From Haloferula rosea (GTDB lineage: Bacteria; Verrucomicrobiota; Verrucomicrobiia; Verrucomicrobiales; Akkermansiaceae): 64,000 bases of DNA. This document shows positions 16,984 through 27,142 of this stretch, piece after piece. The DNA is taken from assembly GCF_016595525.1 (NCBI RefSeq), contig NZ_JAENII010000007.1, positions 62,001 through 126,000 on the forward strand. The letters run 5' to 3'. The notes under the pieces are model-generated. The model made no database searches, had not been told where the DNA came from, and was given only the letters and a program-made list of their open reading frames with translations. The position numbers and the translations under genes were made by a program. Every line of letters begins with the position of its first letter. The first letter of the stretch is position 1.

Positions 16984-17547
16984 ATGGCCAGCACGCCCGT
17001 AATCAACCTCCGCCGCGGTCACGCGGTCCGCCACAACGGCGACGTTTGTGTCGTCATCGCTCACGAACTCAAGACCCCTCCACGCATGGCTTCCTACGTG
17101 CAGATGTCGGTTCGCAGCGTGGCCTCGAAGAAGGTTTCCAATCTGCGCCTTACCTCGAACGATTCGATGGATTCCGTGATGCTGGAACGCGTGCCCCACG
17201 AGTATTCCTACAAGGATGCGGAAGGTCATCATTTCCTCAACAGCGAGACCTACGACGACGTGGTTGTGCCCGGCGAAATCATTGACTCCTGCAAGGATTA
17301 TCTCATCGAAGGACAGGAATACACCCTGCTCTTCGCAGATGGTGTGGTGGCCGACATTGAATTGCCGCAATCCATGGAAATGACCGTGGCTGAGGCCCCG
17401 GAAGGCGTGAAAGGCGACTCCGCCAACAACTCCAACAAGACCGTGACGATGGAGACCGGCCTCGTGATCCAGGCCCCACTTTTCATCAATCCCGGCGATC
17501 GCCTGCAGATCAAGACGGAAGACGGGTCCTACATGGGGCGCGCCTGA
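16984..17547 (+). CDS. efp: Translation elongation factor P
   Basis: Binds ribosomes stalled on polyproline stretches and stimulates peptide-bond formation. The open frame extends to 16804, but the EF-P N-terminus starts at the ATG at 16984 (187 residues, standard length). KOW-like domain I, OB domains II and III, and the C-terminal signature (TGLVIQAPLFINPGD) are intact. The modification-loop tip reads HELKTPPRMASY: by alignment in register with E. coli EF-P, residue 34 is Arg instead of Lys and is preceded by two prolines. An Arg tip is known to be rhamnosylated by EarP in some bacteria, but no earP is seen here and the PPR loop differs from the usual SGRNS form. Confidence 0.95.
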   Translation: MASTPVINLRRGHAVRHNGDVCVVIAHELKTPPRMASYVQMSVRSVASKKVSNLRLTSNDSMDSVMLERVPHEYSYKDAEGHHFLNSETYDDVVVPGEIIDSCKDYLIEGQEYTLLFADGVVADIELPQSMEMTVAEAPEGVKGDSANNSNKTVTMETGLVIQAPLFINPGDRLQIKTEDGSYMGRA

Positions 17548-17625
17548 AGCAAGATCTGCACAGTAGTCTGCCAATTTCCCCCGAGTTCTGGGCCGTTGAA
17601 CCGAATCACCGTCGATTTCGTCCGA

Positions 17626-17647
17626 CTTTGTGAAATTTTTCACAAAG
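17626..17647. promoter_or_regulatory. Rex-type redox operator upstream of nuoG
   Basis: A perfect inverted repeat, arms CTTTGTGAAA and TTTCACAAAG around a TT centre. Its core TTGTGAAATTTTTCACAA (17628-17645) agrees with the known binding consensus of the NADH-sensing repressor Rex (TTGTGAA-N4-TTCACAA). It lies 73 bases before the nuoG start and just upstream of a plausible -35 box. Rex is known to control NADH dehydrogenase genes in other bacteria. No rex gene is in the window, so the link is inferred from the site alone. Confidence 0.75.
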
Positions 17648-17652
17648 GGCAC

Positions 17653-17681
17653 TTGCCGCTCGTGGGGGGGCTTTTCATATT
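17653..17681 (+). promoter_or_regulatory. Putative sigma-70-type promoter of the nuo operon
   Basis: TTGCCG (17653-17658) and CATATT (17676-17681) are separated by 17 bases, each matching four of six consensus positions. The boxes sit between the Rex-type palindrome and the nuoG start at 17721. Confidence 0.4.
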
Positions 17682-17720
17682 CCCCGCGCGTGGGGTCAAA
17701 CCCCTGCCAATTTGTGCGCC

Positions 17721-19487
17721 ATGAGCGATACCGCCTCCACTGCTGAAGCCAAACTGCCTAAGGACCTCGCTGCCGAAAAGGGCCTCGTCAATGTGCAGAT
17801 CGACGGGATCTGGCGACAAGTTCCCAAGGGGACCCGGATGATCGAGGCCTGCCGCCAGTTCGGCGTCGAGGTGCCTCACTATTGCTATCACCCGAAGCTC
17901 AGTTCTCCCGGCAACTGCCGGATGTGTCTTGTCCAGATGGGCATGCCACCCCGTCCCACTCCCGGGCAGGACCCGACCTTCGATGACGAGGGCTACCAGC
18001 CCATCGGTTGGATGCCCCGCCCGGTCATCGCCTGTGCCAACACGGTGGCCGAAAACATGGGCATCCGTACCGGTGGCGAGCTCGTGGAGGGAGTCCGCAA
18101 GGGCGTGATGGAGTTCCTGCTCATCAACCACCCGCTCGATTGTCCAATCTGCGACCAGGCTGGCGAGTGCCGCCTGCAGGAGTTCTCGGTGGGCCATGGC
18201 CGGTTCTCATCGCGCTTCATCGACATGAAGGTCAAGAAGCCGAAGAACGTCGAGATCGGTCCGCGCATCCGTCTCGATGACGAACGCTGCATCATGTGCA
18301 GCCGCTGCATCCGCTTCATGGACGAGGTCGCCGACGACCCCGTGCTCGGCTTCACCCAGCGTGGCACCTACACGACTCTGACGGTTCACCCGAACCGTGA
18401 ACTCGATTCAAACTACTCCCTCAACACCGCGGACATCTGCCCGGTGGGCGCGCTGACCAGCAACGATTTCCGTTTCCAGATGCGGGTGTGGTTCCTCAAG
18501 GAGACGCAGACGATCGACGTCAACTGCGGAACCGGAGCCAACATCACCGTGTGGACCCGGGAAGATAAGGTTTATCGCATCACCCCCCGTCAGAATGACG
18601 ACGTGAACTCCTGCTGGATGCCGGATTCCCACCGTCTCAATTTCCACTACATCGACTCACCCGAGCGCCTCACCGAACCAATGGTGAAAGCGGAAGGGAA
18701 ACATCAGCCCGCGTCGTGGTCCGATGCCCTCGCCCAAGTCGCTGACTCACTCAAGGCCCACGCGGCATCCGAAATCGCCATCGTCGCATCGGCAAGGCTC
18801 ACCAACGAGGAACTCCACCTGGCCAAGGCGCTGGCGGACCAGATCGGCACCGAGCATCTGACCACCGTGCCCCGTGATGCGGAGAGCGATGGCATCCTGA
18901 TTTCCGCTGATCGCAACCCGAATACCACGGGAAGCAAGCTGGTTTGGCGCCGGGCGGATCCAGCATTCCGACTCGAGTCGATTCGCGACGGAGTCCGCGA
19001 CGGATCAATCAAGGTCGTCCTCTCATTGGGTGAAGACCTCACCGCCGAAGCAGGGTTCTCCACCGAGGACCTTGAAAAACTCGACTTCCTCGCATCCATC
19101 CAGCTGCTCGCAGGCGCCACAGCCGAAGCCAGCGACGTCGTCCTGCCAGGCGCTGCCTTCACTGAGAAGCGCGGATCCATGGTGAATGTGACCGGACGCA
19201 TCCAGCGCCTCAACCGGGCGCTTGAACCGCGCGGACTGGCACGCGACGACTGGGAAGTCCTCCGCGACATCACGGCGAGCTTCAAGGGTGAGTCCGGAAT
19301 GAGCGCCGACTACCCGCAGATGATCGAGGACGTCTTCTCCGCCATGCGCGAGGAGGTCAGCGAATTCGAAGGCCTCACCCTGAGCAAGATCGGTGACCTC
19401 GGGGTTTCCGTGACCGAAACCGGTGTCACCATCCCACTCTTGGAAAACGAACGAGCCCGCAAGGCAGCGGGTGAGATCGTCGGCTAA
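17721..19487 (+). CDS. nuoG: NADH-quinone oxidoreductase subunit G (short form)
   Basis: Peripheral-arm subunit of complex I that carries electrons through iron-sulfur clusters. It has 588 residues from the ATG at 17721; a TTG three codons earlier is possible. Cluster ligands are complete: 2Fe-2S C55, C66, C69, C105; the His-ligated 4Fe-4S H137, C141, C144, C150; and a further 4Fe-4S C190, C193, C196, C240. The molybdopterin-like C-terminal half is much shorter than in E. coli NuoG (about 900 residues). First gene of the operon, behind the Rex-type site. Subunits A-F are not in the window. Confidence 0.94.
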   Translation: MSDTASTAEAKLPKDLAAEKGLVNVQIDGIWRQVPKGTRMIEACRQFGVEVPHYCYHPKLSSPGNCRMCLVQMGMPPRPTPGQDPTFDDEGYQPIGWMPRPVIACANTVAENMGIRTGGELVEGVRKGVMEFLLINHPLDCPICDQAGECRLQEFSVGHGRFSSRFIDMKVKKPKNVEIGPRIRLDDERCIMCSRCIRFMDEVADDPVLGFTQRGTYTTLTVHPNRELDSNYSLNTADICPVGALTSNDFRFQMRVWFLKETQTIDVNCGTGANITVWTREDKVYRITPRQNDDVNSCWMPDSHRLNFHYIDSPERLTEPMVKAEGKHQPASWSDALAQVADSLKAHAASEIAIVASARLTNEELHLAKALADQIGTEHLTTVPRDAESDGILISADRNPNTTGSKLVWRRADPAFRLESIRDGVRDGSIKVVLSLGEDLTAEAGFSTEDLEKLDFLASIQLLAGATAEASDVVLPGAAFTEKRGSMVNVTGRIQRLNRALEPRGLARDDWEVLRDITASFKGESGMSADYPQMIEDVFSAMREEVSEFEGLTLSKIGDLGVSVTETGVTIPLLENERARKAAGEIVG

Positions 19488-19505: not shown

Positions 19506-20783
19506 ATGGAAATTCTCATTCCTCTTCTGATCATTCTCGCCAAGATCGTGGGGCTCACCTTCATGGTGGTCCTTCCCTTGGTGCCGGTCTGCGTCTACTT
19601 TGAACGACGCTTCTCCGCGGTCATCCAGGACCGGGTGGGCCCGAACCGGGTCGGAATCCCCCTGACGCTGTTCGGCGGCAAGAAGGACATCCCCCTCTTC
19701 GGCATTGTCCAGCCCGTCGCCGATGCCGTGAAACTCCTGCTCAAGGAGGACTTCACACCCACCAACGTCCGCACCGCCTTCTACTGGCTGGCACCGGCAC
19801 TCACCATCGTTCCTTCTCTGGTGACGGTCTGTGTGATCCCCTTCGGATCGCCACTCACGGTGAATGGTGAGGAAATCAAGTTGGTCATCGCCGATCTGGA
19901 CGTCGGCCCACTGTTCATCTTCGCGGTTTCATCACTGACCGTTTACGGCATCACCCTCGCCGGCTGGTCCTCGAATTCCAAGTATCCGTTCATCGGCGGC
20001 GTCCGCTCGACCGCCCAGATGATCTCCTACGAGATCTGCCTCGGGCTCTCGATCATTCCGGTGCTGATGTGGTATGGCGACCTGAACCTGTCGAACATCG
20101 TCGAGCACCAATCCAAGAACGGTTGGTTGCTCCTGCCCTTCTGGGGCGAGTCGGCCCCATGGAATAACGGAGGCGACTACACAGCCTGGTTGTTCTGGTT
20201 CCCGGCGGTCATCGCCTTCCTCATCTTCACCATCTCCATTTTTGCGGAGACCAACCGTATGCCGTTCGACCTTCCCGAATGTGAGACGGAATTGGTCGGT
20301 GGTTACCACACCGAGTATTCCTCGATGAAATTTGCCATGTTCTTCATGGGTGAATACGCCGCCATGGTGATTGGCTCGGCATTGATCGTGACCCTGTTCC
20401 TCGGAGGCTGGTCACTGGGCCCGTCATTCGATCAATGGTCCGCCGGACTCGAGATCGGATCCGTGGGAATCGGCGGTCTGCTCGGCCTCGCGGTCTTCAT
20501 GGCGAAACTCATCGTCTTCATCCTGTTCTTCATCCTCGTTCGCTGGACGGTCCCCCGTTTCCGCTACGACCAACTCATGCGCCTCGGATGGATCATCTTT
20601 TTCGAAGTGGCACTCATCAATGTCTTCCTTGGAGCACTTGTGATCGCCGCACCTCACCTCGGTATCGTGATCACGCTCGTCGGCGCCGTTCTTCTGGCCG
20701 CCGTCTCCTCCGCCCTGATCTGGGTCCTCAAGGTCTCCGATAAAAGGGAGGACCCCAACACCGGTCTTCTGGCCTCAAACTAA
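19506..20783 (+). CDS. nuoH: NADH-quinone oxidoreductase subunit H
   Basis: Membrane subunit at the junction of the two arms of complex I, forming part of the quinone-binding chamber. It has 425 residues, longer than the usual 325-350, with hydrophobic segments throughout. The family signature is visible as IQDRVGPNRVG near residue 40, and the conserved FAETNRMPFDLPE(C)E loop near residue 250 carries the acidic residues lining the quinone channel. It starts 18 bases after nuoG. Confidence 0.96.
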   Translation: MEILIPLLIILAKIVGLTFMVVLPLVPVCVYFERRFSAVIQDRVGPNRVGIPLTLFGGKKDIPLFGIVQPVADAVKLLLKEDFTPTNVRTAFYWLAPALTIVPSLVTVCVIPFGSPLTVNGEEIKLVIADLDVGPLFIFAVSSLTVYGITLAGWSSNSKYPFIGGVRSTAQMISYEICLGLSIIPVLMWYGDLNLSNIVEHQSKNGWLLLPFWGESAPWNNGGDYTAWLFWFPAVIAFLIFTISIFAETNRMPFDLPECETELVGGYHTEYSSMKFAMFFMGEYAAMVIGSALIVTLFLGGWSLGPSFDQWSAGLEIGSVGIGGLLGLAVFMAKLIVFILFFILVRWTVPRFRYDQLMRLGWIIFFEVALINVFLGALVIAAPHLGIVITLVGAVLLAAVSSALIWVLKVSDKREDPNTGLLASN

Positions 20784-20791
20784 CTGAATTC

Positions 20792-21358
20792 ATGGCAGTC
20801 GTTAAAGTCAAACGCCCGGACCTCAATGCAGGCGAAAAGCTCTTCCTCGGAGCGATCGTCAAAGGGTTCTTCATCACGATGAGGCACGCTTTTGATTCGC
20901 TCCGCGGGAAAACCCGTGGCGCGGACGAAATGGCGTCATCGGGCCTGGGTGCCACCATGCAGTATCCCGAGCAACGCTGGGACGAGCACATGCCCGAATA
21001 CTACCGTGGAGCCCCCGCGCTCGTGACCGACGAGCAGGACCGGGAACGCTGTGTCTCCTGCCAGCTCTGCGAATTCATCTGCCCTCCGAAGGCCATCAAG
21101 ATCGTTCCGGGTGAAATCCCGTCGGACGATGCCTGGGCCAAGGTCGAGAAGAGACCTCAGGAGTTCGACATCGACATGACCCGCTGCATCTACTGCGGCA
21201 TGTGCGAGGAAGTCTGCCCTGAGCAGGCGATCTACCTGAGAAAGGACTATCTGATCAGCGGCCTGAACCGCAAGGAGATGGTCCACGACAAGAAGAAGCT
21301 CTACGAGATCGGCGGAAAACGCGTCGGGCTCGTGAACAAGTGGAATGAATTGAAGTGA
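20792..21358 (+). CDS. nuoI: NADH-quinone oxidoreductase subunit I
   Basis: Ferredoxin-like subunit that passes electrons towards quinone in complex I. It has 188 residues with two 4Fe-4S motifs, CVSCQLCEFICPPKAI and CIYCGMCEEVCPEQAI, both with all four cysteines. The N-terminal part is a short amphipathic region that docks on the membrane arm. It follows nuoH by 8 bases. Confidence 0.96.
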   Translation: MAVVKVKRPDLNAGEKLFLGAIVKGFFITMRHAFDSLRGKTRGADEMASSGLGATMQYPEQRWDEHMPEYYRGAPALVTDEQDRERCVSCQLCEFICPPKAIKIVPGEIPSDDAWAKVEKRPQEFDIDMTRCIYCGMCEEVCPEQAIYLRKDYLISGLNRKEMVHDKKKLYEIGGKRVGLVNKWNELK

Positions 21359-21404: not shown

Positions 21405-21962
21405 ATGCCTCTAACACTCTTCTGGTTCTTTGCGATCGTGATGCTCGTCGGCGGACTCGCCGTGGTATCCCTGCGCAATCCCGTGGCTGCCGCTCTGGCC
21501 ATGGTGTCGTCCTTCGTCGGCCTCGCCGGTCTGTTCATCGGCCTGAACGCCTACTTTGTCGGGGTCATGCAGATCCTCGTCTACGCCGGGGCCATCATGG
21601 TCCTGTTTCTTTTCATCATCATGCTTCTCGATCTGAAGACCGAAGAGAAGCAGGCTCCCAAAGTGGTCCCGCTCGTCGGTGGTCTCGGCATCGTCCTTGC
21701 TTTCACCATCCAGCTCTTCGGCATCCTCGGCAAGGTACCCAACAAGGAGTCGACTCCAATCGACTACCAGGCGGCCTCCGAACACTACGCCCCCATCAGC
21801 AAGTCGGTGTCCGAACGTCTGGCTGACGGCCAATTGCCCGACGTCAACCTCGTCGGCGACGTGATCTTCAAAGGCTACAATCTCCCGCTCCAGATCGTCG
21901 GAGTCCTCCTTCTGGTCGCCACGGTGGGGGTCGTTGTCCTCTCGAAACGCCAGACCATCTGA
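21405..21962 (+). CDS. nuoJ: NADH-quinone oxidoreductase subunit J
   Basis: Membrane subunit of complex I, 185 residues with five predicted helices. The family-typical stretch LVYAGAIMVLFLFIIMLL lies in the third helix, where the pi-bulge involved in coupling sits in known structures. An extended hydrophilic loop (about 120-155) precedes the last helix. nuoK starts six bases after its stop. Confidence 0.94.
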   Translation: MPLTLFWFFAIVMLVGGLAVVSLRNPVAAALAMVSSFVGLAGLFIGLNAYFVGVMQILVYAGAIMVLFLFIIMLLDLKTEEKQAPKVVPLVGGLGIVLAFTIQLFGILGKVPNKESTPIDYQAASEHYAPISKSVSERLADGQLPDVNLVGDVIFKGYNLPLQIVGVLLLVATVGVVVLSKRQTI

Positions 21963-21968
21963 ACGACC

Positions 21969-22286
21969 ATGGCATCCCTTCATTCCTACCTTCTCGTTTC
22001 CGGTCTTCTGTTCGCGATCGGTTTTGCCGGTGTGGTCCTCCGCCGGAACATCATCGTCGTCTTCATGTGTCTCGAGCTCATGCTCAGCGCCGCCAACCTG
22101 ACGCTGGTTGCCTTCTCCCGTTTCAACGGCAAGAACGGACTGCCCGACTACGACGGCCAGATGCTTGTCTTCTTCGTCATCACCGTTGCAGCGGCCGAGG
22201 TCGCCGTCGGCCTCGCCATCATTGTCGCTCTCTATCGGGCTCGTCAGACGATCCACACCGACGAACTAACCAGCATGAAGGGCTAG
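21969..22286 (+). CDS. nuoK: NADH-quinone oxidoreductase subunit K
   Basis: Small membrane subunit of complex I (105 residues, three helices), homologous to MrpC. The membrane glutamates important for proton coupling are present: [11 protein letters not shown] in helix 2 and [12 protein letters not shown] in helix 3. It sits between nuoJ and nuoL as usual. Confidence 0.96.
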
Positions 22287-22340
22287 GCGCCCCGCTGACT
22301 GACGATCCACCACTTTCAGAAGCACACTACTCAAGTCTCC

Positions 22341-24158
22341 ATGGCCTGGCTCCTACTTCTCCTGCCGCTGCTCTCCGCCGCAGCAAACCATCTTTTCCTC
22401 AAGCGGAATGCCTTCCTGGCATCCATGCTATCCGTCGGATCGGTCGTCGCGACCTTCGTGATCTCGCTGCTCCTGTTGGGGGCGACCGACAGTTACGCTT
22501 TCACCTGGGCTTCCCTTCCCGAGCCCGTCGGGAACCTCTCGATCTCGCTGAAGCTCGACCAACTAGCCACCGGGATGATGATCGTGGTCACCGGCATCGG
22601 CATGCTGGTCCATATCTTCTCCCTCGCCTACATGGCGGATGACTCCGCGAAAGCGCGGTACTTCACCTGCCTGTCGCTCTTCATGTTCTCCATGACCGGC
22701 ATCGTGCTGGCCGGGAACTTCATCATGACCTTCATGTTCTGGGAGCTCGTCGGCCTCAGTTCCTACCTCCTGATTGGTCACTGGTACGAGAAGAATTCCG
22801 CGGCGGACGCCGCCAAGAAGGCCTTCCTCGTGAACCGGATTGGTGACTTCGGATTCATGGTCGGCATCCTGCTCCTGTTCGGGATCACCGGAACCTTCAT
22901 CTTCGACGAAATGGGAGCCAAGCTCGCCGCCTTCGAAAGCGCCTACCCCGGATGCTATCCATGCCTGCTCGGCACGGCGATCCTTTGCGTATTCTGCGGT
23001 GCGGTTGGCAAGTCGGCCCAGCTTCCCCTCCACGTCTGGTTGCCCGACGCGATGGAAGGCCCCACCCCGGTCTCCGCGCTGATCCACGCCGCGACGATGG
23101 TCGCCGCCGGCGTCTACATGCTCTACCGCGTGCATCTCTCGCTCGGCGTGGAGGTCTTCACCGAAACGATGGCGGGAGAAGTCATCGCCTGGGTGGGTGG
23201 TCTCACCGCGCTGGCCGCCGCTTTGATGGCGACCCAGCAGGACGACATCAAACGGATCCTCGCCTACTCCACCCTCTCGCAGCTCGGTTACATGGTGATG
23301 GCCACCGGCCTCGGTGGTGGCGATGCCGGCATGTTCCATCTCTTCACCCACGCATGGTTCAAGGCCCTCCTCTTCCTCGGTTCGGGCGCCGTGATCTACG
23401 CCTGCCACCACCAACAAAACATCTGGAAGATGGGTGGTTTGCTCAAGAAGATGCCCATCACCGGCATCACCTTCTTCCTCGGTTTCCTGGCACTCATCGC
23501 CGTGCCATTCACCTCGGGCTTTTTCTCCAAGGAGGCGATTCTCCACGCCGCCGAAGGAAATCCGCCACTGTTCTGGATTGCCGTCGCCGTGGCCGTGCTG
23601 ACGCCATTCTACATGACCCGCCTGTTTGTGGTCACCTTCCTCGGATCTCCGAGCTCGGATGATGCGGATCACGCGAAGGAAGTCAGCCCGTTGATGTTTG
23701 TTCCGCTCGTCCTTCTCGCGGTGCTTGCCGTGATTGCCGGCTACAAGGGAATCAACACCCTCGCACCGGCCCTCCCCGCTCACGCCGGAGAGTTTCACGT
23801 GAATCCACTTTTCTGGATTTCCCTCGGAGCGCTGCTGGCAGGCTCCATCCCCGCCTTCATCATCTACAGCGGCCGCACCAAGGATCCGCTCTCCATCCCC
23901 TTGTTCCGCGAACGTTTCTACCTCGATGCGATCTACGACAAGGTATTCGTGCGTGGCATTCAGGATGGCGGAGCAGCGCTCATCCACTTTTTTGATGAAT
24001 TCCTGATCAACGGCGTGTTGGTCGGCGGTTCGACGCGCTTGGTCCAGTCGGTTGGCGGGCTCTTCCGCCGCGCGCAGAATGGCAACCTCCAGGCCTACGC
24101 CTTTGCCTTTGGCTTGGGCGTTATCGCCGTCATCTACTTCACCGTGTTCTGGAAATAG
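22341..24158 (+). CDS. nuoL: NADH-quinone oxidoreductase subunit L
   Basis: Distal antiporter-like subunit of the complex I membrane arm, proton-pumping. It has 605 residues. Conserved features include FWELVGLSSYLLIGHWY (with the key Glu), LPLHVWLPDAMEGPTPVSALIHAATMV and the lysine in the WFKALLF segment (HLFTHAWFKALLFLGSGAV). The C-terminal lateral helix and final anchor follow the residue-480 region. Confidence 0.97.
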   Translation: MAWLLLLLPLLSAAANHLFLKRNAFLASMLSVGSVVATFVISLLLLGATDSYAFTWASLPEPVGNLSISLKLDQLATGMMIVVTGIGMLVHIFSLAYMADDSAKARYFTCLSLFMFSMTGIVLAGNFIMTFMFWELVGLSSYLLIGHWYEKNSAADAAKKAFLVNRIGDFGFMVGILLLFGITGTFIFDEMGAKLAAFESAYPGCYPCLLGTAILCVFCGAVGKSAQLPLHVWLPDAMEGPTPVSALIHAATMVAAGVYMLYRVHLSLGVEVFTETMAGEVIAWVGGLTALAAALMATQQDDIKRILAYSTLSQLGYMVMATGLGGGDAGMFHLFTHAWFKALLFLGSGAVIYACHHQQNIWKMGGLLKKMPITGITFFLGFLALIAVPFTSGFFSKEAILHAAEGNPPLFWIAVAVAVLTPFYMTRLFVVTFLGSPSSDDADHAKEVSPLMFVPLVLLAVLAVIAGYKGINTLAPALPAHAGEFHVNPLFWISLGALLAGSIPAFIIYSGRTKDPLSIPLFRERFYLDAIYDKVFVRGIQDGGAALIHFFDEFLINGVLVGGSTRLVQSVGGLFRRAQNGNLQAYAFAFGLGVIAVIYFTVFWK

Positions 24159-24191
24159 TCGCCAGCAGCCAACCTTTCCAATCTTCCCGAA

Positions 24192-25637
24192 ATGCTCCTC
24201 GCACTTCTACTCATCCCGCTACTTGCCTTCGCTGCCATCCTGAGCGGCTCCAAGGCACGGACTGCAGCCACCATCGCAGCTGGACTCAACCTTGTTCTCG
24301 GACTTGCCGCGGCGCTCTCGTTTGCTTTATCCGACAGCTCCCGTCTGTGGAACTTCTCCGTTGACGTCCTGCAACGACCCCACATCCAGCTGTCTCTGGA
24401 ACTGTTCGATGGCATGAGCGTGATCATGCTTCTGCTTTCAGTGATCGTCACCTTCGCCGCGGTCTTCTCCGGCAAGGCTCCCGACGGTCGTGAGAAACTT
24501 TACTACGGATCCTCCCTGCTGATTTCGGCCGGGGCCATCGGCGCGTTTCTCTCCACGGACCTGTTCTTCTTCTACGCATTCCATGAGCTCGCCCTCATTC
24601 CTACCTTCCTCATGATCGGCATGCTCGGTCGTGGAGATCGGAAGGCGATTGCATGGAAAATCACCATCTACCTTGGCTTCGGCTCACTGGTCCTGCTGGC
24701 TGGATTGGTGTGGCTCGCGAGTGCCTTCGGAACCTTTTCCATCCCCGCGATGCTTGAGCAGGGCCCACTCGCTGATGCTTCTGCGCAGAAGAGCATCGCC
24801 GCGTTCCTCATCCTGGGTTTCGGCATTCTGGTTTCCTTGTTCCCCTTCCATTCGTGGGCAGCTCCCGCCTACGCGAGCGCACCCGCACCGACCGCCATGC
24901 TCCATGCCGGCGTACTGAAGAAGTTCGGTCTCTACGGTCTCCTCCGACTCGCAGTGCCTCTTCTTCCTGATGGCCTCTCCGCGTGGTTGGTTCCTCTTTG
25001 CGTCCTGCTCCTCGGCAATATCGTCTGGGTCGGATTGGTCACCATCAGCCAGAAACGCCTCGACGGCATGCTCGGCAACTCCTCGGTGATGCACATGGGC
25101 TACATCTTCCTCGGAATTGCGGCCCTCGCCGCGCCCGGCCTCAATGAAATCGCTCTCCCTGCGGCCGTTCTCCTGATGTTTGCGCACGGCATCTCGATCG
25201 CCATGCTCTTCGGCCTCGCCGACCGCATCGAGCGTGTGACTGGAACCCTGGATCTCCAGAAACTCGGAGGTCTTGCCAAGTCAGCCCCCGCACTGGCCTT
25301 CCTCTTCGGCCTCGTAGGCATGGCCAGCATCGGTCTTCCGGGACTGGCCAACTTCGCGGGCGAAGTGATGATCTTCATCGCCTCCTTCGTGAACTATGAT
25401 CCGGCCGCCGGCCTCGGACCGGTGCAGATCACCTGCATCATCGCCATCAGCGGCGTGGTCATCAGTGCCGTCTACATGCTCCGCGCCTATCGCAGCATCT
25501 TCCAGGGTCCCGCCGTTGATTGCACCCGCAAGGCTGCAGACCTAACGCTTTCGGATCGCATTCCCGCTGTGCTGCTGGCCGTCACACTCCTCGCGGTCGG
25601 GATCTTCCCGAACCTCCTGCTTTCCCTGCTGAAGTAG
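24192..25637 (+). CDS. nuoM: NADH-quinone oxidoreductase subunit M
   Basis: Antiporter-like, proton-pumping subunit of complex I, 481 residues. The conserved Glu is in FFYAFHELALIPTFLMIG. PFHSWAAPAYASAPAPTAML is the equivalent of the family's LPDAHTEAPT loop but lacks the usual LPDAH residues. That makes this subunit somewhat divergent from E. coli NuoM, though order and topology leave little doubt. Confidence 0.93.
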   Translation: MLLALLLIPLLAFAAILSGSKARTAATIAAGLNLVLGLAAALSFALSDSSRLWNFSVDVLQRPHIQLSLELFDGMSVIMLLLSVIVTFAAVFSGKAPDGREKLYYGSSLLISAGAIGAFLSTDLFFFYAFHELALIPTFLMIGMLGRGDRKAIAWKITIYLGFGSLVLLAGLVWLASAFGTFSIPAMLEQGPLADASAQKSIAAFLILGFGILVSLFPFHSWAAPAYASAPAPTAMLHAGVLKKFGLYGLLRLAVPLLPDGLSAWLVPLCVLLLGNIVWVGLVTISQKRLDGMLGNSSVMHMGYIFLGIAALAAPGLNEIALPAAVLLMFAHGISIAMLFGLADRIERVTGTLDLQKLGGLAKSAPALAFLFGLVGMASIGLPGLANFAGEVMIFIASFVNYDPAAGLGPVQITCIIAISGVVISAVYMLRAYRSIFQGPAVDCTRKAADLTLSDRIPAVLLAVTLLAVGIFPNLLLSLLK

Positions 25638-25672
25638 TTCCATACGCCTTCCACTTCGCACCATCCATTTCC

Positions 25673-27142
25673 ATGCCTGCCTACTACCTTGAAGCTCTGA
25701 CCGTCGTTCTCGGTCTCGCCTTGCTGATGTTCGAGGCCTTCGGCCCAGCCCACAACAAGCGCCCGATCGGCATGTTCGCGGTGTTCGGACTGTGCCTGAT
25801 CCTGACCTTCAACTTCTTCGCCGTCGGACCGAAGGAAGGTTCGGCCATGGCCGACTGGCCCCTGTGGAATTTCTATCAGTTCGACTCGCTCGCCCGCTTC
25901 TACAAGGGGTTCGCCCTGGTCTGCACCATCCTGGTCCTGCTCATGGCCATGGATTTCCGGTCCATCCTTTCCCGCTTCACCGAGAATCCCGAGTCGGAGG
26001 ACGGAACCGGCGAGTTCTTCGCCCTCCCGGTCTTCGCATGCGCGGGCATGATGTGGATGGCATCCGCCAAGGACCTCATCGGCGCCTTCGTCGCCCTCGA
26101 ACTGGTCACCATCACCTTCTACGTCCTGGTCGGCTACATGCGGCGCAACGTCGGCTCCCTCGAAGCCGGCGTGAAGTATCTCATCCTCGGAGCCCTCAGC
26201 ACCGGGTTCCTCGTCTACGGCATCGCCTGGATCTACGGTGCGACCGGCACCATGAACCTCGATCAGATCGGCGAAATGATGCCGACGCTCGAGAACCCCA
26301 ACGCACTGCTCTTCGGCATCGCCCTTGTCCTCGTCGCTCTCGGTTTCAAGGTAGGCGCAGTCCCCATGCAGATGTGGATCCCCGATGTCTATCAGGGCGC
26401 ACCCACTCCAACGACCGCCTTCCTCTCGGTCGGTTCGAAGGCAGCCGGTTTCATCCTCACCATCCGGGTGCTTCAGCCGATGTTCGTGGAAGGTTCGCCG
26501 GTAGCGACTTCGGTCACCGTGATTCTTGGGATCATGGCCGCGGCCTCGCTCCTTGTTGGTAATCTCGCTGCTCTCGCGCAGAGCAACTTCAAACGCCTGC
26601 TCGCCTACTCTTCCATCGCACACGCTGGATTCATCATCCTCGCGCTGGCGGCATGGAAATCGGATACGTCCGACGAACTGGGTTCCATTGGAGCCGTCAG
26701 CTTCTACCTCGCCACCTACCTGCTGATGACGCTTGCGTCGTTCTTCGTCCTCGCCCAGGTCCGCATCCAGACCGACTCGGAAGAGATCGACAGTTTCAAT
26801 GGACTGGGGCGCCGCAATCCAACCCTGGCCCTTCTCATGACCGTCATCATGGCGGCCATGGCAGGGGTGCCGCTGACCGCAGGCTTCTGGGGCAAATTCT
26901 TTGTCTTCTCCCTCGCCGTCGAGGCCGGTCTCTGGTGGGCCGTCGGCATCGCCTTCATCGGTGCTGCCGCCGGATTCTACTACTACTTCAAGCTCATCCG
27001 TTCGATGTGGTGGAACGAACCGGACCGCGACACCGCCAGCGTCGTACTCCCTCAGATCTCACGTATCAGCGTGATGACCTTGACCGCGCTCGTCGTGGTG
27101 CTCGGATTCTGGCCCCAGCCGATCCTTTGGCTTTTGGGCTGA
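25673..27142 (+). CDS. nuoN: NADH-quinone oxidoreductase subunit N
   Basis: Third antiporter-like subunit of complex I and last gene of the operon; 489 residues from the ATG at 25673. The open frame runs back to 25520 inside nuoM, but the ATG at 25673 gives the normal N-terminal helix. It shows FVALELVTITFYVLVGY with the conserved Glu, the KVGAVPMQMWIPDVYQGAPTPTTAFLSVGSKAAG signature region, and RLLAYSSIAHAGF. Confidence 0.96.
   Translation: MPAYYLEALTVVLGLALLMFEAFGPAHNKRPIGMFAVFGLCLILTFNFFAVGPKEGSAMADWPLWNFYQFDSLARFYKGFALVCTILVLLMAMDFRSILSRFTENPESEDGTGEFFALPVFACAGMMWMASAKDLIGAFVALELVTITFYVLVGYMRRNVGSLEAGVKYLILGALSTGFLVYGIAWIYGATGTMNLDQIGEMMPTLENPNALLFGIALVLVALGFKVGAVPMQMWIPDVYQGAPTPTTAFLSVGSKAAGFILTIRVLQPMFVEGSPVATSVTVILGIMAAASLLVGNLAALAQSNFKRLLAYSSIAHAGFIILALAAWKSDTSDELGSIGAVSFYLATYLLMTLASFFVLAQVRIQTDSEEIDSFNGLGRRNPTLALLMTVIMAAMAGVPLTAGFWGKFFVFSLAVEAGLWWAVGIAFIGAAAGFYYYFKLIRSMWWNEPDRDTASVVLPQISRISVMTLTALVVVLGFWPQPILWLLG

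Follow-up and report, generated by a model that had tools for sequence, protein, structure and literature searches.

A predicted Rex operator ahead of nuoG in Haloferula rosea and its recurrence at respiratory operons of related bacteria

Described Rex systems and the nuoG locus

According to the part of the study available (PMC5355995), Rex of S. avermitilis represses nuo, atp, cyd and the rex-hem operon and also controls ndh2, its consensus being TTGTGAANNNNTTCACAA, and its binding is weakened by NADH. A generalised Rex consensus for several phyla was reported by Ravcheev et al. 2012 (as quoted in the accessible portion of PMC5317091), and it is the same TTGTGAANNNNTTCACAA as is found here. 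The group around H. rosea resembles S. avermitilis both in this consensus and in having nuo, atp and ndh2 among the targets described (PMC5355995, in part), so that nuo, atp and ndh are already known as Rex-controlled genes in Streptomyces. What is new here is the phylum, alternative complex III as a target and the geometry of the operator, and what differs is that no operator is seen at rex. In the open-licence literature no paper on Rex in Verrucomicrobia was found, and the portion of PMC5317091 available draws no link between Rex and alternative complex III.

The window, a 64,000-nt stretch of one H. rosea contig, carries the palindrome TTGTGAAATTTTTCACAA at 17628-17645 on the plus strand, as read from the sequence and returned by a pattern scan. 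Its arms match the published Rex consensus exactly, their pairing extends two bases outwards (CT...AG) to 17626-17647, and the central dinucleotide TT is the sole part that is not self-complementary. This is the only exact copy in the window, and it lies 75 nt upstream of the nuoG start, where the sequence-only reading had placed it, within the 173-nt gap between the stop of the EF-P gene (17547; identified by Pfam EFP domains) and the nuoG ATG at 17721, from which most of 80 relatives align from residue 1. The operator adjoins a conserved -35/-10 pair ahead of nuoG, an energy gene: a -35 element TTGCCG (17653..17658, plus strand) stands 7 nt past the operator and is followed after a 17-nt spacer by a -10 element CATATT (17676..17681, plus strand), both read from the sequence. 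A generic promoter scan of 17500-17800, which required at least 9 of 12 matches, found no promoter.

The genes that follow all lie on the plus strand. The first, nuoG (17721..19487), matches NCBIfam TIGR01973 NuoG with an E value of 3e-137 and a score of 459 bits, just below the 470-bit cut-off. It is followed by an open reading frame that we take to be nuoH (19506..20783), by a 4Fe-4S subunit gene with Pfam Fer4 that is named nuoI from its order (20792..21358), by nuoJ with Pfam Oxidored_q3 (21405..21962), and by open reading frames that are presumably nuoK, nuoL, nuoM and nuoN (21969..27142). The names nuoE, nuoF, nuoH and nuoK-N, as well as those of the later atp genes, are assumed here from sequence features together with gene order.

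Copies of the site, the rex gene and their joint presence

The whole assembly (4.68 Mb, 69 contigs, 97.5% complete) holds five exact copies of the site, none with one mismatch and three with two mismatches. About 0.003 exact copies would be expected from composition (61% G+C), giving a Poisson p of 3e-15 for the five observed. With up to three mismatches allowed, 65 matches were found, 57 of which have three mismatches, against 45 for the backward-read control pattern, so that the weak matches are mostly due to chance. All five exact copies head respiratory operons, namely nuoB-nuoC, nuoD-x-nuoE-nuoF, nuoG-nuoN, a complex III operon, and atpB followed by other ATP synthase genes. The random scatter that would have spoken against a regulatory role is not seen; the earlier reading had proposed a search for further copies at other redox genes, and the four that exist stand at respiratory operons. 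That reading had also spoken of the complex I operon; a Rex-type site does precede nuoG, but complex I is not encoded in a single operon, since nuoB-C, nuoD-E-F and nuoG-N lie on three contigs, each headed by a site. In the complex III operon, the first gene matches the alternative complex III subunits 6f0k (E 4e-58) and 6btm, and the second carries a TAT-variant molybdopterin-oxidoreductase domain; the later genes of this locus (L272) are presumably cytochrome oxidase genes, judged by sequence features. Beside the three sites with two mismatches (L006-L008), no tblastn match to the respiratory query set was found, and one of them, TTGTGAGAAGCATCACAA (L007:1501-1518), lies in a stretch of 51% G+C. 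At the ispB-like and NDH-2 genes of this genome (L277 and L279), the nearest sites are 4 and 5 mismatches off.

A search with the PF06971 profile found a single rex gene in the genome, on another contig than the window. The encoded protein has winged helix-turn-helix and Rossmann domains, passes several NCBIfam Rex equivalog cut-offs and aligns over its full length with solved Rex proteins. For T. maritima Rex, 12 DNA-contacting residues are listed, and Glu34, Ser52 and Arg60 are named as not conserved (PMC8836258, in the part available). Read off the alignment, 10 of these 12 residues are identical in the H. rosea protein, and the two that differ correspond to Glu34 and Ser52, both among the positions that this part of the source calls variable. 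Together with the five exact sites, all of them at respiratory operons, the presence of a rex gene favours the identity proposed from the palindrome itself, which is very probably a docking site for NADH-sensing Rex ahead of complex I genes. On this evidence, we consider it likely that TTGTGAAATTTTTCACAA is a Rex operator, one of five that would mark complex I at its three loci, alternative complex III with oxidase-like genes, and the F-type ATP synthase.

What the sequences show directly is that the sites and a rex gene are present and that the two occur together across genomes. In a class panel of 285 genomes, in which rex was counted above the cut-off and four weaker matches were excluded, 81 genomes carry an exact site (290 sites; one match for the backward control) and 94 carry rex. 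Both were found in 74 genomes, rex only in 20, the site only in seven and neither in 184 (Fisher p 6e-41), and 281 of the 290 sites belong to rex-bearing genomes. With stratification by family, across the seven in which both traits vary, the Mantel-Haenszel odds ratio is 60 (CMH p 1.5e-13), the Fisher and CMH tests both treating genomes as independent. In the family of the window, all 19 rex-bearing genomes have two to eight sites, and none of the 25 rex-less genomes has any. From a NuoG tree of 50 rows (L147 left out of the site trait, L114 not in the tree), five usable independent pairs on well-supported branches were obtained, and testing them gave a median p of 1, which is not significant; in this tree, the rex-less rows whose sites have decayed comprise L103, L099, L105 and one group of six.

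Against the Rex reading stand the 20 of 94 rex-bearing genomes that have no exact site, the seven of 81 site-bearing genomes that show no rex, and the non-significant pairs test. In the 20, including four in family f6 and six in family f28, Rex may recognise a shifted operator or have other genes as its targets. Two genomes (G142 and G272, at L042 and L044) have an exact site before atpB and no rex match, while three members of their family have both, and the missing rex would reflect an assembly gap or recent loss.

Each of the 12 genomes of a genus panel has four to eight exact sites, 76 in total, and the backward control gave none. Among the 75 sites that were read, 73 lie upstream of seven respiratory targets by tblastn: actA (12), nuoB (12), atpB (12), nuoG (11), nuoD (10), an ispB-like gene encoding a polyprenyl synthase (PF00348; 8) and NDH-2 (8), the last matching PDB 9mqy with an E value of 2e-91. 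These 73 sites head respiratory-chain, quinone or ATP synthase genes, whereas the Rex targets described in S. aureus are anaerobically induced genes (PMC2883068, in part). The S. avermitilis targets include cyd (PMC5355995, in the part available), and alternative complex III is among the targets here. The S. aureus operator TTGTGAAW4TTCACAA (same portion of PMC2883068) is matched in its centre by the genus panel, where 285 of 292 central bases of the site are A/T. The remaining two sites (L164 and L185) precede a TetR gene, which is divergent from ndh in four other loci. In the two genomes concerned (G219 and G273), the TetR gene lies 8.5-10 kb from ndh and both genes have an exact site (L164 and L185; L163 and L184), and the operator seems to have been duplicated or to have been kept on either side of an insertion.

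In three genomes of the sister family, all 25 sites were read, and 17 of them match nuoB, nuoD, nuoG, atpB, actA or ispB by tblastn. Six more (L253, L254, L259, L260, L264 and L266) precede genes that we take, from sequence features, to be nuoF, nuoE, nuoH or nuoI, and L250 and L270 were matched to none of these respiratory genes. The first of the latter pair (G171, L250:1501-1518) is an exact site 176 nt before a gene resembling those of RRM RNA-binding proteins, about 1.4 kb from the nuoG site. From other families, 30 sites were read, one per genome, and tblastn placed 18 of them at one or other of the seven targets. Six others (L032, L035, L038, L049, L050 and L051) are tentatively assigned to respiratory or quinone genes on sequence features, presumably cydA at L035, a radical SAM enzyme of the menaquinone pathway at L038 and cytochrome oxidase subunit II at L051. 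The last six (L026, L040, L046, L048, L052 and L053) are not beside recognisable respiratory genes.

Promoter geometry and the sign of control

The operator keeps a near-fixed place before the core promoter. In the genus panel, it ends 5-8 nt before a TTG in all 53 sites at nuoB, nuoD, nuoG, atpB and ndh, whereas the 12 actA and 8 ispB-like sites lack a TTG at this distance, the ispB-like operators being centred 10-30 nt before the start codon. Among 80 named nuoG loci, one of which (L145) has no upstream DNA and was left out, 55 of 79 carry the exact site and one more carries it with a single mismatch. When the -35 element was scored 3-11 nt past the operator, it started at 7 nt in 44 of the 55 site-bearing loci, all with TTG, and at 6 nt in the other 11, of which ten read TTTACG and one CTTGCA. 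The best -10 element, CATA[GTAC]T or CATCTT, lies at a 17-nt spacer in 52 of the 55. With the transcription start deduced from the -10 element, the nuoG operator is centred near -52. In the part of PMC5355995 available, the S. avermitilis footprints overlap the -35 region (-50 to -22 at atp, -42 to -16 at nuo), in contrast to the operator here, which stands upstream of the -35 element. In Streptomyces, Rex sits on the core promoter; with the site displaced upstream, a simple steric block is a less evident mechanism.

The presence of rex was sought in 50 of the 79 nuoG genomes, comprising every one of the 24 that lack an exact site and 26 of the 55 that carry it, the latter chosen by taking about every second by number with few swaps. 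It was found in 24 of the 26 and in 13 of the 24. The 13 rex-bearing genomes without a nuoG site have no exact site anywhere in the fetched locus; one of them (L147), counted as site-less, starts inside an apparent site at a contig end, and in loci such as L148 and L134 an apparent nuoF runs into nuoG, so that no promoter is expected there. Among the 11 rex-less loci without an exact site, nine keep the -35/-10 pair with no visible strengthening of the promoter, and L146 and L152 show no such promoter. These nine differ from the consensus at 1, 4, 5, 5, 6, 6, 7, 8 and 10 of 14 positions. In seven of them, leaving out L136 (almost intact) and L103 (no recognisable remnant), the A/T content is 95% in bases 6-13, 30% in the outer ten bases and 41% in the 40 nt upstream; at the outer positions, 33 of 70 cells still hold the consensus letter, the final AA of all seven among them. 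Such decayed operators in rex-less relatives indicate what the promoter retains after the repressor is lost.

Binding of Rex, its response to NADH and the sign of its control at these sites are what we infer from the genome sequences. At low NADH/NAD+, NAD+-bound Rex would occupy the A/T-rich tract that immediately precedes the -35 element and hinder RNA polymerase at the contact of its alpha subunit with the UP element and at the edge of the -35 element, the A/T core of the operator presumably being UP-element-like. NADH releases Rex in the known Rex biochemistry (PMC5355995 and PMC8836258, as far as available), and it is therefore expected to do so here. As NADH accumulates, Rex would be released and the NADH-oxidising chain made, and NADH oxidation, the downstream chain and ATP synthase would all go up at high NADH, resulting in negative feedback on NADH.

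Alternatively, Rex might bind but activate, or act as a dual regulator, from about 52 bp upstream of the start, which we regard as unlikely. The near-fixed spacing is of the kind that activators need, and the nuoG core promoters are weak in match, agreeing with the consensus at 7-9 of 12 positions. However, the geometry is not uniform, given the actA and ispB-like sites; an activator would lower respiration at high NADH; and described Rex represses at nuo and atp (PMC5355995, in part). In rex-less relatives, the A/T core and a -35/-10 pair that is unchanged and not visibly strengthened are more readily expected after the loss of a repressor than of an activator that is essential.

A large part of the respiratory chain, alternative complex III included, may be governed by a single NADH sensor, which may provide a concrete, testable rule for respiratory capacity in a poorly studied phylum. 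As a tentative generalisation, Rex in Verrucomicrobiota might serve almost exclusively as the master switch of oxidative phosphorylation, acting on complex I, NDH-2, synthesis of the quinone side chain, alternative complex III together with oxidase genes, and ATP synthase. The geometry would be unusual, with an operator nested in a UP-element-like A/T tract upstream of the -35 element, where Rex would compete with the alpha subunit of RNA polymerase (or, less likely, activate), leaving mainly the A/T core after loss of rex.

Other readings of the palindrome and the rex locus

The pattern TGTGA-N6-TCACA is also the consensus of CRP, and TTGTGAAATTTTTCACAA fits it exactly, so that a site for a regulator of the CRP/FNR family, an alternative that the earlier reading did not raise, has to be weighed; it appears very improbable. 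Searches with PF13545 and PF00027 in the 97.5% complete genome found no protein that joins a cNMP-binding domain and a Crp-type helix-turn-helix; the sole PF13545 match is a 100-aa protein lacking a cNMP domain, and none of the four PF00027 matches lies where that helix-turn-helix is. A CRP site is disfavoured since these two profile searches found no CRP protein. Moreover, the sites track rex across genomes, and CRP regulons are loose in site match, unlike this genome with its lack of single-mismatch sites to the Rex pattern. There is a negligible probability that the palindrome terminates transcription of the EF-P gene or is an inverted repeat that arose by chance: it begins 81 nt past the EF-P stop and has a short T-run, but the terminator scan of 17500-17800 found no terminator-like site, its sequence and not just its pairing is kept at five genome loci and at 55 of 79 nuoG loci, and its distance from the promoter is near-fixed.

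In S. avermitilis, rex itself belongs to the Rex-controlled rex-hem operon (PMC5355995, in the part available), whereas here no exact site was found at the rex gene of this genome or in 38 related loci of rex, each read over about 3 kb, and autoregulation of rex is not supported. Directly 3' of rex (L016:1351-3143) lie two genes that, judging from sequence features, we take to encode an ECF-type sigma factor-like and an anti-sigma-like protein. Relatives of the sigma gene stand beside rex in 17 of the 38 related loci, and it is possible that NADH sensing and a sigma factor are linked at the rex locus.
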